A stretch of DNA of 64,000 nucleotides from Streptococcus sp. 1643 (GTDB taxonomy: Bacteria > Bacillota > Bacilli > Lactobacillales > Streptococcaceae). Positions 5,112 to 19,643 of this stretch are shown here, one piece after another. The notes under the pieces are model-generated. The model saw only the letters and a program-made list of their open reading frames with translations. It did not search any database and was not told the origin of the DNA. Numbering within the stretch: position 1 is the first letter of the stretch; each line of letters opens with the position of its first letter. The stretch covers positions 259,001 through 323,000 of the forward strand of contig NZ_CP040231.1 in assembly GCF_006228325.1 (NCBI RefSeq). Reading direction: 5' to 3'. The position numbers and the translations under genes are program-made.

Positions 5112-5292
5112 TTTTTATTGATTTGTAGTGCGATATAATGAGTTTCAAAAAATCAAAAATCACTTTAAATCAATATTTTGACGTCTATTGACGTGTACTG
5201 AAACCCTTACTTCACCTCTGTAAAGGTTGTGAATGTTATTTTAGCACCCTTTAAACGCTGTTATATCAACGTTTTTAGATTGTTCTATAGAA

Positions 5293-5314
5293 AATGTAGT
5301 CATAAATGTAGTCA
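5293..5314. repeat. Integrase arm-type direct repeats, left end of element B
   Basis: Two copies of AATGTAGTCA lie 11 bp apart, just beyond the integrase stop codon. The same pair occurs at 19508-19529 at the other end of the element. Paired short repeats inside both ends are typical binding sites for the N-terminal arm-binding domain of Tn916-like integrases. Confidence 0.7.
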
Positions 5315-5319
5315 TTTTG

Positions 5320-10663: not shown

Positions 10664-10739
10664 GATTTTTTAATTTGCAGTAGTAGTATGCCACAAAAAA
10701 CGATTTATAAAATTTCATAAAAAAACAAATTGATTATTT

Positions 10740-10757
10740 TTAATGGTATAATAACAT
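10740..10757 (+). promoter_or_regulatory. Extended -10 promoter of the restriction enzyme gene
   Basis: TTAATGGTATAATAACAT contains an extended -10 box (TGGTATAAT, -10 at 10747-10752) and no good -35. The same 18 nt occur at 14642-14659 before the putative defence operon. Confidence 0.7.
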
Positions 10758-10783
10758 CAAGTAGTAATATTATTGGAGATGAA

Positions 10784-13579
10784 ATGGATATCAAGCAACA
10801 GAAGAAAAATGCCCAGGCGTTTATTAAACGTTGGGAAAATCGTGGGAACGAGCGACAAGATAGCCAATCTTTTTGGCTTGATCTACTTCAGTCAGTATAT
10901 GGGATTGAAAAACCTACAGAATACATAAGATTTGAAAATACAGTTAAGATTGACAAAACAAGTTTTATTGATGGTTTTATTGATGCGACAAAGGTTTTGA
11001 TTGAACAAAAGGGTTCTCACAAGGACTTAAATAAAGCTATTAAACAGTCTGATGGTACTTATCTAACACCATTTCAACAAGCTAAACGATATGCCACAGA
11101 TTTACCGTATTCTCAAAGACCCCGTTGGATTGTAACATGTAATTTTAAAGAGTTTTATGTCTATGATATGGAACAACCAAACGGTGAACCCAAGGTCATT
11201 AAACTAGCTGACCTGGATAAAGAAGCCTATCGTCTAGAATTTCTGATAGATAAGACAAATGAACACCTAGAACGTGAGATGAAGGTTTCTATTGAGGCTG
11301 GAGAAATCGTTGGAGAGATTTACGAGGGGCTGCTTAAGCAGTATATCAATCCTGATAGTCCAGATAGTCTTCATGCGATTAACCAACTTGTTGTGCGTCT
11401 AGTATTCTGTCTTTATGCTGAAGATGCGGGAATTTTTGGACATCACATGATGTTTCATGATTACCTGGCTCGTTTTAGCAGCCGTGACTTCCGACGAGGG
11501 TTAATTGACCTTTTCTCTATCTTAGATACTCCGATTGAAGAACGAGATCCGTACTTGGATGAGGAGCTTCTTGCTTTTCCTTACGTTAATGGAGGGATGT
11601 TTGCTGAGAATAGGCTAGAAATTCCAAACTTTACGGATGAACTACGTGAGTTAATTTTGGAGCATGCTTCATCTAGCTTTGACTGGTCTGAAATTAGTCC
11701 TACGATTTTTGGAGCAGTATTTGAGTCTACACTCAACCCAGAAACACGTCGAAGCGGTGGTATGCACTATACCTCCATTGAAAACATCCATAAAGTAATT
11801 GATCCACTCTTCCTGGATGAACTAAGAGATGAATTGAATGAGATACGTCAATTCAAGCAATTTAAAACGGTTGAACAAAGAGCTAAACAGTTTCAGTCAA
11901 AGCTATCTAGTCTGACATTCTTTGACCCAGCTTGTGGTTCAGGTAACTTCCTTACAGAAACTTATATATCCCTAAGACGTTTAGAAAATGAAGCTATTAA
12001 GCTTTATATGGGGGATACAGTAGCATTAGACTTAGGTCAAGACCTTGTTAAAGTGAAATTAAATCAATTTTATGGTATCGAGATCAATGACTTTGCGGTT
12101 TCTGTTGCTAAAACGGCCCTCTGGATTGCAGAAAGCCAGATGCTGGAAGAAACTAAAGATATTGTGTTTGCGAATATTGATTTCTTGCCACTTAAGTCTT
12201 ATACAAATATTGTTGAAGGAAATGCTTTAGGAGTCGACTGGGATACGGTAGTACCTAAAGATAGACTGAGCTATATTATTGGTAATCCCCCGTTTTTAGG
12301 AGCGAGAAATATGGGCGATAATCAAAAAAAATCTGTTCAAGCTATTTTTTCAACTCTCAGTAAGAATGATGTACAAATGATGGATTATGTAACGTGTTGG
12401 TTTAAAAAAGCAGCTGAATTTATTTTTGAAACTGGTATACAAGTTGCTTTGGTATCAACGAATTCAATAGTCCAAGGGGCACAAGTCCCAATTCTTTGGA
12501 AGCTACTTTTTGAAGAATATCAAATACAAATTAACTTTGCTTATCAGACATTTAAGTGGACAAGTGATTCATTACAGCAAGCAGCGGTACATTGTGTTAT
12601 TATCGGATTCTCCCAAGTCAATAACCCTGAAAAAAAACTATTCACAAATTCTGGCTTTATTAAGGTGAAAAATATAAGTCCTTATTTAACTGAGACAAGT
12701 AACGTATTGATTGAAAGTAGAAATAAACCAATTAGCAATGTCCCTCAAATGAAGTTCGGCAATCAACCACGGGATGGTGGTAATTTTATTTTTTCTGATG
12801 ATGAATACCAGGAACTTATTAAAAACAACCCACAATTGTCGAAGTGGTTTAGACCGTATATCGGAGCAAATGAATTTATCAATAACATAAATCGATGGTG
12901 TATTTGGTTAAAACATGCCTCTCCAGTAGAAATTCGAAACAATAAATTTATATATGATCGTGTTAATGCTGTAAGGGAGTTTAGAGAATCATCAAATGCT
13001 AAAACAACTCAAGGTTATGCTAAAGTACCACATCTTTTTGCTCAGCTAACACAACCTGATGGTGCTCCGTATATCATCATTCCTCGAGTAACTTCTGAAA
13101 GGCGTCGTTATATTCCCATAGGCTTTATGTCCCCAAATGAAGTTTCAAGTGATGCAGTCCAAATAATTCCCAACGCTTCTCTCTACGATTTTGGTATTCT
13201 AACCTCTAATGTCCATATGGCTTGGATGCGTACGGTTGCTGGGCGTCTTAAATCTGATTATCGTTATTCAGCCAAGATAGTCTACAACAATTTCCCTTGG
13301 CCGGAAGTGACGGAAGTTCAAAAAGATAAGATTTCTAAGACTGCTCAAGCCATTCTCGATGCACGTGCGCTATATCCAGATAGCTCATTGGCAGATCTCT
13401 ATGATGAGTTAACCATGCCAGTCGAACTTAGACGAGCTCACCAGGCTAACGATAAAGCTGTCATGGAAGCTTATGACATGACAAAAATCGTAGATGGTAA
13501 GAGAACTTGGTTAACTGAAAGTGAGACAGTTGCACGATTATTTGAGATGTATGAAGAAATTATACAAAAAACCAATTAA
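10784..13579 (+). CDS. MmeI-like (type IIL) restriction-modification enzyme, single chain
   Basis: The 931 aa protein starts at the ATG at 10784 after a TTGGAGAT site. Domains in order: an N-terminal PD-(D/E)XK nuclease with D67 and E74-Q-K76; a helical linker; an N6-adenine methyltransferase with motif X region (GGMHYTS), motif I DPACGSG (residues 381-387) and motif IV NPPF (501-504); and a C-terminal target-recognition region from about 610. Such enzymes both cut unmodified DNA and methylate one strand of their site with one protein, so no partner gene is needed. The full length and intact motifs suggest it is active. It is defence cargo of element B, with its own promoter and terminator. 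Its recognition site cannot be read from sequence alone. Confidence 0.88.
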   Translation: MDIKQQKKNAQAFIKRWENRGNERQDSQSFWLDLLQSVYGIEKPTEYIRFENTVKIDKTSFIDGFIDATKVLIEQKGSHKDLNKAIKQSDGTYLTPFQQAKRYATDLPYSQRPRWIVTCNFKEFYVYDMEQPNGEPKVIKLADLDKEAYRLEFLIDKTNEHLEREMKVSIEAGEIVGEIYEGLLKQYINPDSPDSLHAINQLVVRLVFCLYAEDAGIFGHHMMFHDYLARFSSRDFRRGLIDLFSILDTPIEERDPYLDEELLAFPYVNGGMFAENRLEIPNFTDELRELILEHASSSFDWSEISPTIFGAVFESTLNPETRRSGGMHYTSIENIHKVIDPLFLDELRDELNEIRQFKQFKTVEQRAKQFQSKLSSLTFFDPACGSGNFLTETYISLRRLENEAIKLYMGDTVALDLGQDLVKVKLNQFYGIEINDFAVSVAKTALWIAESQMLEETKDIVFANIDFLPLKSYTNIVEGNALGVDWDTVVPKDRLSYIIGNPPFLGARNMGDNQKKSVQAIFSTLSKNDVQMMDYVTCWFKKAAEFIFETGIQVALVSTNSIVQGAQVPILWKLLFEEYQIQINFAYQTFKWTSDSLQQAAVHCVIIGFSQVNNPEKKLFTNSGFIKVKNISPYLTETSNVLIESRNKPISNVPQMKFGNQPRDGGNFIFSDDEYQELIKNNPQLSKWFRPYIGANEFINNINRWCIWLKHASPVEIRNNKFIYDRVNAVREFRESSNAKTTQGYAKVPHLFAQLTQPDGAPYIIIPRVTSERRRYIPIGFMSPNEVSSDAVQIIPNASLYDFGILTSNVHMAWMRTVAGRLKSDYRYSAKIVYNNFPWPEVTEVQKDKISKTAQAILDARALYPDSSLADLYDELTMPVELRRAHQANDKAVMEAYDMTKIVDGKRTWLTESETVARLFEMYEEIIQKTN

Positions 13580-13637: not shown

Positions 13638-14387
13638 TCACCTTATTCTGAACATGATTGAAGAACTAGATACAGTTTTAATTTGTGGATGGTTGTTATA
13701 GAATTCGATTTGCCCAATAATAGCAAGATCATAATTTTGATGTTGGTCTATTTCATCCTTGTTTTTCCCTCTATATATAGTTGTCTTTATTCTCCACTCG
13801 CCATCTTGTTTGGTCTTCACAATCAATCTGTATTGAGTCTCCCCCAATTTAGTTTTAAATTCTTTAACTTCTAAATGGACGCTCCCATAAAATAGAAAGA
13901 CGTTATTTTCTTCGTCCTTATCAAACCAGCTCTTCAAAGATTTTCTGGGGATACATTTTCTAGTATTAGGTTGACCTTCTCTTCTGACTAATACTGTAAA
14001 AGGATTATCACCTTCATCATTAGCAGGAATTTGATTTTCTTCTCGTTCTCTTGGCAACATTCGATTCAACATTGCTTCAAGTCTATCTTGCATCTCCTCC
14101 TCACCTAAATTACTAACATAATCCCTGATTTCCCTCCTGGATACAGATTCATATTTGAGAGAACAATTCGCCATATGATCTGACGACGGTAATGTAGACA
14201 AAAAAGCTCTTTTTTTTGATGTTTTATGAGTAAATGCTAGCTCAGCAATCCTACATTCTGGACAAAATATTCTACCTCGGTAACTCGATATATCTCCACT
14301 TTTTTGTTCATATTCCTTTTCTAATTCATCTAAATTATGAAGTCTTTGATCCCCAGTGAAATAGAATTCTTTAAATTTCTCTCCCAT
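13638..14387 (-). CDS. Unknown protein with a Cys/His motif, 249 aa
   Basis: The start is an ATG with an AGGAG site 9 nt upstream. Near residues 42-80 there is CPEC, a later HMANC and scattered basic residues, a layout that recalls the zinc-ribbon-like N-terminus of CoiA-type or competence-like nucleases, though the rest does not match them clearly. The C-terminal part is beta-rich (LFYGSVHLEVKEF, YRLIVKTKQDGEWRIKTTIYRGK). No signal peptide or membrane segment is seen. It is a single-gene unit lying opposite to and between the restriction enzyme and the kinase/nuclease operon. A role in defence is suggested only by its neighbours. Confidence 0.6.
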   Translation of the reverse strand: MGEKFKEFYFTGDQRLHNLDELEKEYEQKSGDISSYRGRIFCPECRIAELAFTHKTSKKRAFLSTLPSSDHMANCSLKYESVSRREIRDYVSNLGEEEMQDRLEAMLNRMLPREREENQIPANDEGDNPFTVLVRREGQPNTRKCIPRKSLKSWFDKDEENNVFLFYGSVHLEVKEFKTKLGETQYRLIVKTKQDGEWRIKTTIYRGKNKDEIDQHQNYDLAIIGQIEFYNNHPQIKTVSSSSIMFRIR

Positions 14388-14641
14388 TTTACCTACTCCT
14401 TAACTCGATAATATTTCATATATACTATATTATACCTAATTCAAAGAAAATGCTATTATAAACTTGAAAGTGAATTATAGAAATCTTATTTTTGGTTAAA
14501 ATATTGATAAACAGAAGAAATTAATAATATCGTAAGAGCTATAAATAATTAATTCTACTAGTTAAGAGCCATATTTAGAATCATACATCTAAATTAATTT
14601 TATAATGAGTTATTACTCCAACAAACCAACTCCTTAACACA

Positions 14642-14659
14642 TTAATGGTATAATAACAT
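14642..14659 (+). promoter_or_regulatory. Extended -10 promoter of the putative defence operon
   Basis: The 18 nt TTAATGGTATAATAACAT repeat the promoter found before the restriction enzyme gene. The -10 box TATAAT is at 14649-14654, and the first ATG follows about 17 nt later after a GAGGAA site. Confidence 0.7.
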
Positions 14660-14671
14660 AGAGGAATTACT

Positions 14672-15445
14672 ATGGAAGAAAATTTAAACCCTAATATTGA
14701 TCCACGAATAAAATTTAAACTGCTGCCACCAGCTACTATTATTAAAAATTTTGTTGACGGAGAACCTGATTGTAATTATGAGAACTATTTGCTAGAGCTA
14801 CTTAATAAGTCATCTCATTTTAAAGAAAAAGGTCAATCTCTTTTCTCTAAACCGTTAAATGAAAATAATGGTCAATGTGATGCAATATCGAAAAATTATG
14901 AAATAGACTTTAAATTATTATCATCTAGCACTAGATTACAAGCTAGTCATTTGTTTTCTCCGGGCGTTAGCAATTATGGCGATGGTATAATTGGTATTCA
15001 TGAAAGTAAAAAGAAATTCGGTGAAGTAAAAGCTACTCAGATTCATGTTGCATTCCGAACAAGAGATATATCAGAGCTCACTCGATTAGGGGAAAACTTT
15101 TTAAATATTAGAAAGTATGGTATTGAAAGAGATATCATAAAAGTGTTGAAAATGCTTGAAAAACAGAAAAACCTTTTATTATTTTTTCCATATTCGTTTG
15201 AGCTGATTGATATACTCGAGACAGATAATTCGGATGATATTATTGTAAGCGCGTTAAATTATGATTTCCACTCACTATTTGAATACAGAAGTTTAAAAGC
15301 GAAGGGATTTGATACCTATTTTGTAACCATATTTCAAGATAGACTTTATATTTTTTCTATTCTGGACGACACACTCTGTTTAATTGAGAAAGTAGATTGT
15401 ATGTTACTGCCTACATTTATTAAATTAAAGAATTACCATCTATAA
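14672..15445 (+). CDS. Putative PD-(D/E)XK nuclease-like protein, first gene of the cargo operon
   Basis: This 257 aa soluble protein has a segment CDAISKNYEIDFKLLSSS with D70, D79 and K81, spaced like the catalytic D...(D/E)-x-K of restriction-type nucleases. The flanking strands fit that fold. No family name is recognised and the motif alone is weak evidence. It is the promoter-proximal gene of a five-gene operon, 13 nt before the kinase gene. Low GC and abundant Lys/Asn/Ile codons match the rest of the element. Alternative: a non-enzymatic sensor. Confidence 0.5.
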   Translation: MEENLNPNIDPRIKFKLLPPATIIKNFVDGEPDCNYENYLLELLNKSSHFKEKGQSLFSKPLNENNGQCDAISKNYEIDFKLLSSSTRLQASHLFSPGVSNYGDGIIGIHESKKKFGEVKATQIHVAFRTRDISELTRLGENFLNIRKYGIERDIIKVLKMLEKQKNLLLFFPYSFELIDILETDNSDDIIVSALNYDFHSLFEYRSLKAKGFDTYFVTIFQDRLYIFSILDDTLCLIEKVDCMLLPTFIKLKNYHL

Positions 15446-15458
15446 GGAGGACGAGTTA

Positions 15459-16964
15459 TTGATCAATTCAGATTTTTACAAAAGACTAGCAAAGATATTC
15501 TGTGGAGATGAGACAGAGCTGTTTACTTATAAATCAGGGTCTCAGCTAGTTTCTTTTTTCAATACCCATTTCCATACTCAAGATAGTTATGGTCAGGGTT
15601 TTCCTACAAGATGGATATATGTGAATGACAAGCTGTTGGACTTTTCATCTAGAGGCATTATCAATTCATTTTTCAACCTTATACTCAGCAAACAATATCT
15701 TTTAACAGAGCGTCAGATAAGTGAAGTGGATGCTATAGAGCATCAGCAGAAAATAATAAATGAATTAGATAAAATTTGTTCTGTTTATTCTTTAAAACTC
15801 TCAAGAAAAGGAAATGAATTTTATTTAGTAGAAATTGATTTAGATTTAGTTGAGATTGGAAAGGGTGGCTTTGCTGATATTTATTTCCAAAAATCTACAG
15901 GATTAGTGGTAAAAAAACTAAATGAGGAATCTGTGAGACGACAATCGTTGAGAAGTAGATTAAAAAGAGAGTATGAAATAACTAAGTCTTGTTCGGATAT
16001 TGAGAGTATTATTCGAGTATTTGATTTCGATAGTAGTAATTGTTCATACACAATGGAAAAAGCCGATGATACATTGGGAAATTATATTGAAGCAAGTGAG
16101 CTGACAGAGGATTCTAAACTCAATATATTGCGTCAAATACTTTATACTATGTCTCTTGTCCACCAAAGAGATGTTCTACATAGAGACTTGAGTCCAACCA
16201 ATGTTTTCTTCGTGGATGGGATAATTAAGATTGCTGATTTTGGATTAGGAAAAAACCTAAATACTCTGACTTCTCATCAAACAATGGATACAACTTCTTT
16301 TGGTCAACTATTTTATTGCGCACCAGAGCAACTATCGCTCTTAAAAGATGCAGATAAACGAAGTGATGTGTATTCACTGGGGCGTATTATTAATTTTGTT
16401 ATGACTAAAAATCCTAATATTTTTTCACATTCTCTTCGTTCTGTTAGTGAAAAAGCTACGAATTTAGAACCTGATTATAGGTATCAAGACGCTACTGAAA
16501 TGCTGAATGCATTAAATGCTTGGCTGAGCATTAGAAGTGGCGAAACTTTTAAGAAAACTATATGGGAAAAAATTGATCACGGTATTTTTGATGATGACAT
16601 AGAAAACTATATTTACGAAATGACAGCAAGAGAGTTATGTCGAGCATGCATCAAAAAAAGTGATGTTTTTATTGAAAGCTTAATGGTCTTTATGAAGTTA
16701 GATGATGCGCACTCGATTTATATCATTCAGACGATTCATTCTAACTACGAGCAATATTTGAAACGATTTGAAGATGCAGATCCTTTCGCCTCTCTTTCTT
16801 ATAGAATTTTAAAGGGACAATTTTCATTCAATGTTAAAGAAGTGGCTGCTCAGATTTTACACTATGTAGCCTATGAAGTTGGGCGCTTTTCTGCTCAGCG
16901 TAAGGTAGATAATTTGATTGAAAATGGGATTGAACCATTGATTGAGTCAATATTAGAAAGATAG
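15459..16964 (+). CDS. Eukaryotic-like Ser/Thr protein kinase with an N-terminal extra domain
   Basis: Translation starts at TTG (15459-15461) with a perfect AAGGAGG site 8 nt upstream. The 501 aa protein has a 120-residue N-terminal domain (FPTRWIYVNDKL at about 48-59), which by eye recalls N-terminal modules of abortive-infection proteins. A complete kinase follows: glycine loop GKGGFA (134-139), Lys pair at 152-153, HRDLSPTN (D243), DFG (260-262) and APE (288-290). A helical C-terminal region of about 140 residues has no recognised fold. It lacks membrane or PASTA segments, unlike StkP. It probably phosphorylates a partner or a host target on infection; this is inferred from the neighbouring nuclease and FRG genes. 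Confidence 0.8.
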   Translation: MINSDFYKRLAKIFCGDETELFTYKSGSQLVSFFNTHFHTQDSYGQGFPTRWIYVNDKLLDFSSRGIINSFFNLILSKQYLLTERQISEVDAIEHQQKIINELDKICSVYSLKLSRKGNEFYLVEIDLDLVEIGKGGFADIYFQKSTGLVVKKLNEESVRRQSLRSRLKREYEITKSCSDIESIIRVFDFDSSNCSYTMEKADDTLGNYIEASELTEDSKLNILRQILYTMSLVHQRDVLHRDLSPTNVFFVDGIIKIADFGLGKNLNTLTSHQTMDTTSFGQLFYCAPEQLSLLKDADKRSDVYSLGRIINFVMTKNPNIFSHSLRSVSEKATNLEPDYRYQDATEMLNALNAWLSIRSGETFKKTIWEKIDHGIFDDDIENYIYEMTARELCRACIKKSDVFIESLMVFMKLDDAHSIYIIQTIHSNYEQYLKRFEDADPFASLSYRILKGQFSFNVKEVAAQILHYVAYEVGRFSAQRKVDNLIENGIEPLIESILER

Positions 16965-16980
16965 ATTAGGAGGAAATGTA

Positions 16981-17643
16981 ATGACAAATGATGAATATTT
17001 CAATGAAATAGAGACATATTTTAATAAATTTAGAGAATATCGCGAAGAATCAAGGTCAATAGCTGCAGGTATTATTGGTGAAAACTTTACTGAAGATGAT
17101 TTATTTTTTATTTCTGCACTTAACAGACGAGTTCAATTTATTGATGGGATAATGAACTTATTAAGAACAAGAAATCTTACTTGTACAGGAATTATAGTAC
17201 GAACACAACTTGATAACCTTATGAGAGTCTTTGCAGCTTTTATATCCGAGGACAGAAGATCATTTATTAAAGAGACATTAAGTGGTACACCTATTAGGAA
17301 TATGAAAGATAATCAAAATGAAAAGATGACTGATGCCAATCTTAAGAAAAGGATGTCGAAGTATTATCCTGAGATTGAAGAAATTTACAATAAATCATCT
17401 GGTTATGTTCATTTGTCTGAAGTCGCATTTCATGAAGTCTTTTGGACCGAACGTTTTGAAAAAGAAGACAAAATTAAATTTTCAGTTGGATTACCCCCAA
17501 GAGAAAAACTAAATCCTATTTTAATTGAGTGTGCTGAAGTATTCTGTCACTTTACAGAGATTGAATATGATTTTTACCAAAAAATCATTGATTCAAAAAA
17601 AGTTTTTGATAATAAACAAAAAGATATTTTTGAATTAATGTGA
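16981..17643 (+). CDS. Helical protein of unknown function, 220 aa
   Basis: An AGGAGG site precedes the ATG by 7 nt, and the gene follows the kinase gene by 16 nt. The protein is mostly alpha-helical and charged, with an RTQLDNLMRVFAAF segment near residue 75 and SSGYVHLSEVAFHE near 140. The spaced Arg, Asp and His recall helical proteins such as DUF5677, which occur in defence islands, but I cannot assign it. There is no signal peptide or membrane segment. Tight spacing implies that it works with the kinase. Confidence 0.6.
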   Translation: MTNDEYFNEIETYFNKFREYREESRSIAAGIIGENFTEDDLFFISALNRRVQFIDGIMNLLRTRNLTCTGIIVRTQLDNLMRVFAAFISEDRRSFIKETLSGTPIRNMKDNQNEKMTDANLKKRMSKYYPEIEEIYNKSSGYVHLSEVAFHEVFWTERFEKEDKIKFSVGLPPREKLNPILIECAEVFCHFTEIEYDFYQKIIDSKKVFDNKQKDIFELM

Positions 17644-17704
17644 GCTATATTAAACTATCAATAATTACGAAGATAAAAAATAAATAATAGAGGGGAAATG
17701 AATT

Positions 17705-18394
17705 ATGACAACAAATAGTATTAACTCAGATATCACATTGATATCGATTGCTCATAACCAATATGGTGATGAGTTGAACATTGATGATTGGAATTGTGAG
17801 TTTAAAAATTGGAAAATGCTACCAATTAAAGATGGTAAATATTATAATTTTTTGAAGAAAGTAGAAATAGATTGTAGAGTGACCCAAGAACCTATATATC
17901 GGGAAAACCCAATAATGTGGAAGGTTATACTTAGAAAAAAACCAAACGCTAACTATTTCGTTTCTAGCCTAAATATTGTAAATCATAATATTACTGGAAG
18001 TAATAATGCTGAAATAAATTCTACTTCAGAAGAGAGCATTAAGGACAAAGGGCATTTTATTGCCGATTCATTTGATAAATTTCTACTTACAGAGAATGAA
18101 CTTAAGGAAAATGGATTCAAAGTTCAACAATTTTTTGGTCTAGGGAATAAAAGCAACGTCTCACCTCAAGATTATAGAGCAAATAGAAATTCTAAAGCAT
18201 ATACTGGACAATTGAAATTTGAACAAAAAATCTTAAATTTCTTAAACAAAAGTACTAATATGGATGATGAAATATACTATGAAATAGAAGAAATCAAGTT
18301 TAATCAAAAAGTATTCGGTCGGAGAATATTCATAAAATGGCCATCTGGAAATCCAGATTTTACTCATGTTTTTATTCCAGAATGCCGTAAATAG
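17705..18394 (+). CDS. Cytoplasmic NucA/EndA-type (beta-beta-alpha metal) nuclease
   Basis: This 229 aa protein carries the hallmark of the DNA/RNA non-specific endonuclease family. The catalytic motif is DKGH (H117, family DRGH), followed by N151 and N160, exactly 9 residues apart as in pneumococcal EndA, then YTGQLKFE with E173 matching the metal-proximal Glu region. EndA is membrane-anchored, but this protein has no signal peptide or membrane helix, so it would act inside the cell on DNA or RNA. Such an activity must be controlled, plausibly by the kinase or FRG neighbours. The start follows GAGGGGAAATGAATT. The residue mapping is by eye but consistent along the active site. Confidence 0.7.
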   Translation: MTTNSINSDITLISIAHNQYGDELNIDDWNCEFKNWKMLPIKDGKYYNFLKKVEIDCRVTQEPIYRENPIMWKVILRKKPNANYFVSSLNIVNHNITGSNNAEINSTSEESIKDKGHFIADSFDKFLLTENELKENGFKVQQFFGLGNKSNVSPQDYRANRNSKAYTGQLKFEQKILNFLNKSTNMDDEIYYEIEEIKFNQKVFGRRIFIKWPSGNPDFTHVFIPECRK

Positions 18395-18496
18395 ATGTTA
18401 TTATTAAACATATCAATAAAAAAAGCAATTTTACAACTTTGTGTTTGGATATATTAAAAAGCTAATACTATTTTGATAATTGAGAGGAATTAAACG

Positions 18497-19354
18497 ATGG
18501 GATATACAAAGGAAATAGATAGTTTAAAAGATTACATAGATTTTATTGGAGAATATAGTTCGGAATCTAATACGGAACTCTGGTATAGAGGGCATAGAGA
18601 TGACTCTTGGGCTTTAAGACCTAATATTTTTAGAGATCAAATTTTAGATATGCCTGCTGATAATAAGGTTCACCCAATTAAGTATAAAAATTTTATAAAT
18701 TTTAAAGATGAGATTATAGAATTTAGAAATCAATTTAAATATAAAAAAAATTATAACTCTGATTTCAATTTATTCCATTATACATTTATTGGTCAACATT
18801 ATGGATTAAAAACACCTGCACTAGACTGGTCTACAGATCCTCTTGTAGCTTTATATTTTGCTTTAGATAACTATGAATATATTGAAGATGGCCCATTTCC
18901 AGTCATATATGTTTTACATCCTAATAATTTAAATGAATATTCAAAGTTGGTCCATTCGAATGAGGGTGTTGACCGTAATATTACTAAACCTCTAATTGTT
19001 GAGGAACTAAATGATGAGTGTTTCATGGAGTGGTTTAAGGATTTAAATAATACACCCTTCGATTTTTGCCCACTTGCAGTGAGAAGTAATCTGGATTTGC
19101 AGTGTCATAGAATTTCTAGACAATCTGGTGTCTTTACGCTTCATGAAGCTAGGCACTTAAAATCTCCCGATTGGTTTGCTAGAATTCCGGATTTTGGTAT
19201 AGCACTTAAAATCAATCCCCAAAAAGCTGTAGAAATAAGAAAACATCTAAATTCATTAAACATTAATGAAGCTACAATTTATGGAACTGGAGTTGATAGT
19301 AAAGAGTTATCACAGATAGCAAAAGAAATTGCCAATAAAACTGAAAAAATATAG
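18497..19354 (+). CDS. FRG-domain protein
   Basis: This 285 aa protein matches the FRG domain (named after its Phe-Arg-Gly motif): LWYRGH (28-33), GQHYGLKTPALDWS (99-112) and DPLVALYFALD (114-124), followed by a C-terminal alpha/beta part. FRG proteins are widespread near phage-defence genes and look related to ADP-ribosyltransferase-like folds; their activity is not settled. A GAGAGGAAT site precedes the ATG. The 102-nt gap before it is the largest in the operon, so it could have an extra weak promoter. A strong terminator follows at 19441. Confidence 0.8.
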   Translation: MGYTKEIDSLKDYIDFIGEYSSESNTELWYRGHRDDSWALRPNIFRDQILDMPADNKVHPIKYKNFINFKDEIIEFRNQFKYKKNYNSDFNLFHYTFIGQHYGLKTPALDWSTDPLVALYFALDNYEYIEDGPFPVIYVLHPNNLNEYSKLVHSNEGVDRNITKPLIVEELNDECFMEWFKDLNNTPFDFCPLAVRSNLDLQCHRISRQSGVFTLHEARHLKSPDWFARIPDFGIALKINPQKAVEIRKHLNSLNINEATIYGTGVDSKELSQIAKEIANKTEKI

Positions 19355-19440
19355 GTTGGTTTTAACATTTAAACAAAAATTCTAACAATTTTTTATAAGA
19401 AATTATCTAAATAATAGATTGAATAAATTTTATGATATAG

Positions 19441-19472
19441 AAAACGCTCTAGACAATATGACTAGAGCGTTT
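19441..19472 (+). terminator. Terminator of the putative defence operon
   Basis: A perfect 12-bp stem AAAACGCTCTAG / CTAGAGCGTTTT with a short loop closes the operon, with T-rich 3' sequence. It probably works in both directions. Confidence 0.85.
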
Positions 19473-19507
19473 TCTATATATCCGAACATCTAATTTATTT
19501 CACAAAA

Positions 19508-19529
19508 AATGTAGTCAAAAATGTAGTCA
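19508..19529. repeat. Integrase arm-type direct repeats, right end of element B
   Basis: Two copies of AATGTAGTCA with an 11-bp period match the pair at 5293-5314 beside the integrase, differing only in the linker. Confidence 0.7.
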
Positions 19530-19643
19530 TTCGGTTGATTTTTATTGCAATACATTGAATTTTGAAAATTCAAGAATCACGTTAAATCAAGGTTTTTTCG
19601 TTTCTACTGAAACGTAATGACCCACTATTTAACTTCTGTAAAA
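19530..19643. repeat. Right-end segment shared by elements A and B
   Basis: This stretch lines up, in the same order, with about 5112-5225. Shared blocks include TTGATTT, AATCAC-TTAAATCAA, TACTGAAAC and CTGTAAA. It marks the right end of both elements and may include attachment or accessory-factor sites. Identity is partial, so the exact core is not defined. Confidence 0.55.

Follow-up and report, generated by a model that had tools for sequence, protein, structure and literature searches.

The Stk2 kinase at the centre of a streptococcal operon

Staphylococcal Stk2 is described as a kinase that is triggered by a phage product, phosphorylates several host targets, and brings about abortive infection (PMC12926258; PMC12323379). 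In streptococci, surveys already record Stk2 for S. suis (PMC12479173; PMC12813430; PMC9501460), and for S. thermophilus it is entered as not tested, with a footnote reading as "pseudogene" (PMC12322248). The window examined here is a stretch of 64,000 nt from Streptococcus sp. 1643 (contig NZ_CP040231.1, positions 259,001 to 323,000), in which five plus-strand genes, g1 to g5, occupy 14672–19354, and the second of them encodes a kinase of the Stk2 type. A preliminary description of this DNA had taken the five genes for a single undescribed phage-defence operon; the genes are all intact as it had stated, and the unity and novelty that it proposed hold for only part of the set.

The kinase gene g2 (15459–16964, plus strand, TTG start) is an intact open reading frame (ORF) of 501 codons, and its product matches the PADLOC Stk2 model over positions 1–500 of 500 with 833.6 bits, the runner-up model reaching 115 bits. 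The kinase domain PF00069 is recognized with 101.8 bits, and the extra N-terminal domain pointed out in the preliminary description is present and is covered by the Stk2 model. The catalytic motifs of protein kinases comprise the glycine loop, a lysine, HRD, DFG, and APE, and the corresponding residues G136-G137, K152-K153, H241-R242-D243, D260-F261-G262, and A288-P289-E290 are invariant in an alignment of 11 rows (A4). All eight kinase relatives scanned match the Stk2 model, the sole model to do so at E ≤ 1e-60. By its sequence, g2 is a full-length Stk2, an already known anti-phage abortive-infection kinase, and since the kinase belongs to this family, the centre of the supposedly undescribed operon has in fact been described, while the phage-defence role proposed for it appears well supported. 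The likeness to the staphylococcal kinases consists of the full-length model match and the intact catalytic motifs, the staphylococcal side being represented here by gene sizes: two of the four S. aureus copies with stated coordinates span 1506 nt, which is the length of g2, and the others span 1507 and 1326 nt (PMC12323379). The window kinase may differ in its setting, an operon with g1 and g3, neither of which is matched by PADLOC.

The recurrence of the gene order, a check proposed in the preliminary description, was surveyed in a set of 335 Streptococcaceae genomes that has a single genome for each species, with a threshold of E ≤ 1e-60 for Stk2, and the fetched loci L003, L004, L005, and L006 were taken as those of G219, G121, G146, and G183 and counted once. 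Stk2 is found in 23 of these genomes, g1 in 16, and g3 in nine; at E ≤ 1e-100, Stk2 is found in 4 of 398 sampled genomes of the class, the window's own included. Of the 16 genomes with g1, nine have it immediately ahead of stk2 (G000, which is that of the window, G121, G126, G146, G167, G183, G219, G323, and G325), and g3 lies directly after stk2 in eight of nine (the same genomes without G325), the only other g3 copy being in G185, which has no Stk2 at the threshold. The complete order g1-stk2-g3 therefore recurs in 8 of the 335 genomes and is intact in seven, as the G126 copy has a g1 without a start and a g3 split by a transposase. The co-occurrence of g1 with Stk2 (nine genomes vs. 1.1 expected) and of g3 with Stk2 (eight vs. 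0.6) is high, with p-values that are merely a guide because the genomes are related. The close copies of the operon are on contigs of Streptococcus pseudopneumoniae, S. infantis, S. mitis, and S. oralis subsp. dentisani, and two viral contigs (L082 and L083) have g1 followed by stk2 without g3, the stk2 of L082 being split into two frames. In the window, the gaps within the trio are 13 nt (g1-g2) and 16 nt (g2-g3), and those that follow are looser, with 61 nt (g3-g4) and 102 nt (g4-g5). The five genes do not form a single unit: g1-stk2-g3 recurs, and g4 and g5 are optional.

The novelty lies in the conserved g1-stk2-g3 operon and in the exchange of partners by g1 considered below, both in few genomes, and the known element is the kinase at the centre. 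The description of the locus as novel fails for the kinase and stands for g1, g3, and g4, which have no match in Pfam, PADLOC, or NCBIfam at a meaningful score; PADLOC identifies g2 as Stk2 and g5 as PDC-S15. No description of g1 or g3 beside Stk2 was found in the accessible portion of the open-access literature. Among g1, g2, and g3, the defence-gene library thus sees only the kinase, and if g1 and g3 are truly its partners, the streptococcal system has been read too narrowly, and experiments on the kinase by itself could overlook some of its components. The locus is probably an Stk2 abortive-infection module that travels, together with two companions and optional cargo, at one end of the streptococcal integrative element that carries it as cargo. 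By analogy with staphylococcal Stk2, a phage product would activate the kinase, which would then phosphorylate essential host proteins, so that the cell stops or dies before phage release. The product of g1, made just ahead of the kinase, would most likely be a partner with the PD-(D/E)XK fold that cleaves or binds nucleic acid and that acts with, or is switched by, the signalling enzyme behind it, mostly a kinase and once a CD-NTase. The helical product of g3 could modulate the kinase or serve as a further effector, and g4 (nuclease-like) and g5 (FRG, possibly an NADase) would be separate, interchangeable defence cargo placed before a common terminator-like hairpin.

Beyond these operons, a wide context was examined for 21 of 24 Stk2 places (left out were G088, G208, and G188, fragments like G202 and G103), and Stk2 protein matches also occur on two Lactococcus plasmids (E ≤ 1e-40) and two phage fragments (E ≤ 1e-30). 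The stk2 copies of five genomes (L025–L029) are short, lack the first part, and are spread over two frames that adjoin near residue 437. In a viral contig (L119, 5521–7425), the stk2 frame is present from residue 28 on within one ORF of 634 amino acids, the start of which resembles a phage tail protein by eye, and this may be a real fusion, an insertion scar, or an assembly error. Another Stk2 (69% identical; L040, 8527–11510) lies behind the PADLOC candidate pair PDC-M04A and PDC-M04B. The genes that precede Stk2 in G039 (257 aa), G043 (263 aa), and G388 (195 aa) were considered as PD-(D/E)XK-like proteins because of motifs noted by eye, and this is not claimed, hhalign giving them a probability below 1% against g1 and Pfam nothing significant (for the third, UPF0102 at E 0.1).

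The companions g1 and g3 and the partners of g1

The first gene of the operon, g1 (14672–15445, plus strand, intact ORF), encodes a protein of 257 amino acids with the residues E37, D70, and K81 invariant and D79 conserved in at least 90% of the 24 rows of alignment A1. The arrangement E...D...(D/E)xK is the active-site pattern of the PD-(D/E)XK superfamily, and g1 may be called PD-(D/E)XK-like by this motif only. The fold is unproven because the confident model of g1 (predicted local distance difference test, pLDDT, 89.9) has no significant match among solved structures: Foldseek returned none at E ≤ 0.001, the rows of the VIA structure list are at noise level, and sequence searches of g1, g3, and g5 against solved structures gave none at E ≤ 1. 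The structural rows for SfsA, YaeQ, and HEPN obtained in the g1 and g3 searches are leads only. A full-length match of 335 bits links g1 to the phage family phrog_4170, of unassigned function, and the g1 protein search of the phage and plasmid collections gave no match.

The third gene, g3 (16981–17643, plus strand, intact ORF), encodes a protein of 220 amino acids with a predicted structure that is mostly helical (pLDDT 87) and is found with the kinase in the close clade only. Its top profile match is BSD with 17.1 bits, under the cut-off of 24.6, and Foldseek gave no match at E ≤ 0.001, the HEPN-like rows of the VIA list scoring no higher than helical bundles may by chance. The motif Rx4-6H is characteristic of HEPN proteins, and g3 does not contain it, as no arginine lies 5–7 residues ahead of any histidine. 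Protein searches with g3 gave no match in the phage collection and no relative in the viral contigs. The idea that g3 belongs to DUF5677, formed by eye from a neighbour in G161, gained no support: hhalign gave a probability of 0.2–0.4% with five single relatives or small sets, and Pfam listed no match of g3 to DUF5677 at E ≤ 1. The G161 genome has a g1 fragment only, and in locus L106 (6292–8575) such a fragment is flanked by a DUF5677 gene and by a 348-aa gene that looks, by eye, like the one behind g1 in G250.

Other genes can occupy the place of Stk2 behind g1. For example, in G137 a distance of 21 nt separates the end of a g1 relative (64% identical) from a CD-NTase gene (SMODS; PADLOC cyclase, 367 bits), which is followed by Cap15. 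By sequence match, G137 holds a pair of the cyclic oligonucleotide-based anti-phage signalling system (CBASS), that is, a CD-NTase with the receptor and effector Cap15, where Stk2 would be, and the g1 relative stands ahead of the cyclase as g1 stands 13 nt ahead of stk2. The window operon differs from CBASS in that the seven window proteins scanned show no cyclase or cyclic-nucleotide receptor model, among the best 25 of 34 and the best 25 of 37 PADLOC families for two of the seven. Similarly, in G250 a 325-aa protein without a matched family is encoded 34 nt behind g1, with a same-strand SIR2-domain gene ahead. This G250 partner (L101, 5850–6827) has an Arg-x4-His near the C-terminus that could, by eye, be a HEPN RNase motif. 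Locus L041 (7671–12088), from a different genus of the family, provides a second instance of Stk2 or g1 close to a CBASS-like set: SLATT_4, SMODS cyclase, and AGS_C genes are followed there by an Stk2 gene (48% identical) that overlaps a 257-aa gene.

In a tree of 16 g1 rows, which includes L083 and leaves out L082 and the G161 fragment, a split with 100/100 support separates four partnerless rows (G262, G066, G292, and G095) from 12 operonic ones. All 12 operonic rows have a same-strand gene 13–34 nt behind g1, which is Stk2 in ten (L083 among them), the CBASS pair in one, and the 325-aa gene in one. The g1 of G137 groups with the ten Stk2-linked rows with a support of 84/93, at an open fork. 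It may be proposed, tentatively and with the balance of probability against it, that g1 founds a nuclease-like defence family that plugs ahead of unrelated infection-signalling enzymes, namely Stk2, CD-NTase–Cap15 (G137), and the 325-aa protein (G250). If this were true, one effector or sensor would be common to phosphorylation-based and cyclic-nucleotide-based immunity, and Stk2 would act in these streptococci as one of two or three proteins instead of as a lone kinase. The swap of g1 between a kinase and a CBASS cyclase offers a specific and testable connection between two types of bacterial immune signalling.

The main doubt about an Stk2 module with companions is that g1 and g3 may merely travel with Stk2 instead of working with it, and several observations weigh in that direction. 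Stk2 is present without g1 or g3 in G132, G133, G039, and G043, g3 is present without Stk2 in G185, and some relatives of g1 lack a close partner gene. The latter are the four rows of the separate branch, in which the first 100 nt behind g1 hold no gene on its strand: the next gene is 107 nt away in G262, 128 nt in G292, and more than 900 nt in G095, and it is on the opposite strand in G066, where a CD-NTase and SLATT_4 pair adjoins g1. The pattern E37/D70/D79/K81 is kept in all four. These cases favour an explanation that is unlikely, if with a real share of the probability, in which Stk2 acts alone and g1, g3, g4, and g5, each a small defence gene in its own right, happen to be stacked between one promoter and one terminator. 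The same-strand gene 13–34 nt behind every operonic g1 and the position of g3 directly behind stk2 in eight of nine genomes argue against it.

Optional cargo and transcription signals

The gene g4 (17705–18394, plus strand, intact ORF) encodes a protein of 229 amino acids with G116, H117, N148, and N151 invariant and D114 conserved in at least 90% of 19 rows (alignment A3). The pattern D(R/K)GH...N is the catalytic motif of Endonuclease_NS, and g4 is assigned to the NucA/EndA type by motif and relatives only. It resembles EndA/NucA (PF01223) in this motif and through its relatives, of which seven were scanned: two pass the Pfam cut-off of 23 bits (P0054 with 24.9 and P0056 with 24.7), three fall below it, and two have no match. 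It differs in that g4 itself has no Pfam match to PF01223 and no visible signal peptide. The sole match to a solved structure is a weak one to the DNA-entry nuclease 3owv (E 0.045), and the g4 protein search of the plasmid collection gave no match. The gene g5 (18497–19354, plus strand, intact ORF) encodes a protein of 285 amino acids with an FRG domain (PF08867, 67.1 bits; cut-off 25) and matches the PADLOC candidate PDC-S15, which is characterized by this domain, with 113 bits. PDC-S15 is a candidate system only, and g5 is no fixed part of the window operon. FRG has been placed in the ADP-ribosyltransferase (ART) superfamily as a possible NADase (PMC9503650). The domain calls of the preliminary description held in outline, through Pfam for the kinase and FRG, motif and relatives for g4, motif for g1, and the structural model for g3.

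Relatives of g4 occur in 12 of the 335 genomes, eight of which have no g1 or g3, and an intact g4 lies behind g3 in four genomes (G000, G121, G219, and G323), two of which have g5 behind it (G000 and G121). The G121 g4 looks chimeric, with a divergent first part and a remainder nearly identical to the window g4. In G146, G167, and G183, the blastn match to the window stops at 17793 (g4 codon 30) and restarts at 19416, just before the hairpin, the two ends being 5 nt apart in those genomes, so that a 1.6-kb segment of the plus strand (17794–19415, most of g4 plus g5) has no counterpart there. These three species keep g1, g2, and g3 intact and g4 as a stub only, and g4-g5 are considered optional cargo because of this absence, having apparently been either gained in the window lineage or lost in the three others. 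Ratios of nonsynonymous to synonymous substitution (dN/dS), from which saturated-dS comparisons (G325 and G185) were left out, are 0.06–0.14 for g1, 0.13–0.18 for g2, and 0.16–0.34 for g3 (six genome pairs each), 0.41–0.56 for g4 (three pairs), and 0.40 for g5 (one pair). These values support the coding status of all five genes, and purifying selection is strong on g1–g3 and weaker on g4–g5.

The stub leads to the conclusion that g4 cannot be a required effector, which weakens the proposal that the kinase frees a nuclease, with g4 as that nuclease. The reading as one new five-gene system, with g4 released by the kinase and g5 as a second effector, would account for the shared strand, the single strong hairpin at the end, and the presence of g4-g5 with g1–g3 in the window and G121, and it is nevertheless highly improbable in view of the stub in three of the seven close operons with intact g1-g2-g3, the g5 that adjoins g4 in only two of the four genomes with an intact g4 there, the eight of 12 g4 genomes without g1 or g3, and the higher dN/dS of g4 and g5.

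The operon was said to have one promoter and one strong terminator, and the second part of this claim proved the more secure. A hairpin with a 17-bp stem (inverted repeat; 19436–19478, plus strand) lies far beyond chance because of its folding energy (−24.4 kcal/mol, z −9.5), and the stretch is kept at 93–96% identity in G146, G167, and G183. A terminator consensus scan listed five sites vs. 2.4 expected and none at 19436–19478, the hairpin being missed probably because its T-rich tail belongs to the stem. The extended −10 box TGGTATAAT at 14642–14659 (plus strand), noted by eye, is a plausible operon promoter and less certain than the terminator; a promoter scan found 37 promoter-like sites vs. 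36.2 expected, which is no excess, and 14642–14659 is not among them. Homology to G121, G146, G167, and G183 starts at 14633–14642. The 18 nt of 14642–14659 are a perfect copy of 10740–10757, ahead of the gene of an MmeI-like enzyme, and the fetched loci hold one further site within two mismatches (L098). The shared −10 box suggests cargo lined up behind copied promoters, which favours independent stacked genes, and the repeat could have arisen either by the copying of a cargo promoter or by coincidence, the DNA being AT-rich.

The integrative element and its neighbouring genes

The genome of the window is one contig of 1.9 Mb, and g1–g5 are flanked by the MmeI-like type IIG gene (10730–13579; PADLOC REase_MTase_IIG, 1179 bits) on one side and the end of an element on the other, which agrees with the restriction enzyme and mobile element of the preliminary description. 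The element has a phage-type integrase (PF00589) and a Rep_OBD replication gene, and a 37-nt direct repeat (5280–5316 and 19495–19531; 84% identical, 14.2 kb apart), with one copy beside the integrase and the other just past the operon-end hairpin, probably marks its ends. The neighbours of the cassette vary, with type I restriction-like genes (by eye) in G146, G219, and G323 and elements with FtsK-like genes and different cargo in G121 and G183. Regulation of the mobile element by the kinase, with companions that serve transfer or maintenance, would suit a cassette at the end of an integrative element, and it is the least probable explanation, given the recurrence of the cassette in these different surroundings and the fit of the kinase to the Stk2 model.

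At the DNA level, the whole stretch matched one record of the phage collection, with 2% covered, and three of the plasmid collection, with 1–7% covered, among which are one FRG gene at 66% and one Lactococcus kinase gene. A divergent gene of 249 amino acids (13638–14387, minus strand) lies upstream of g1, outside the module, and is found there in seven close loci as either of two variants that are 28% alike. It was dropped as a fourth core gene, as 12 of the 15 genomes that have it (among 137 genus genomes) are without g1 and g3. Its N-terminal part contains a CPxC...H...C stretch.

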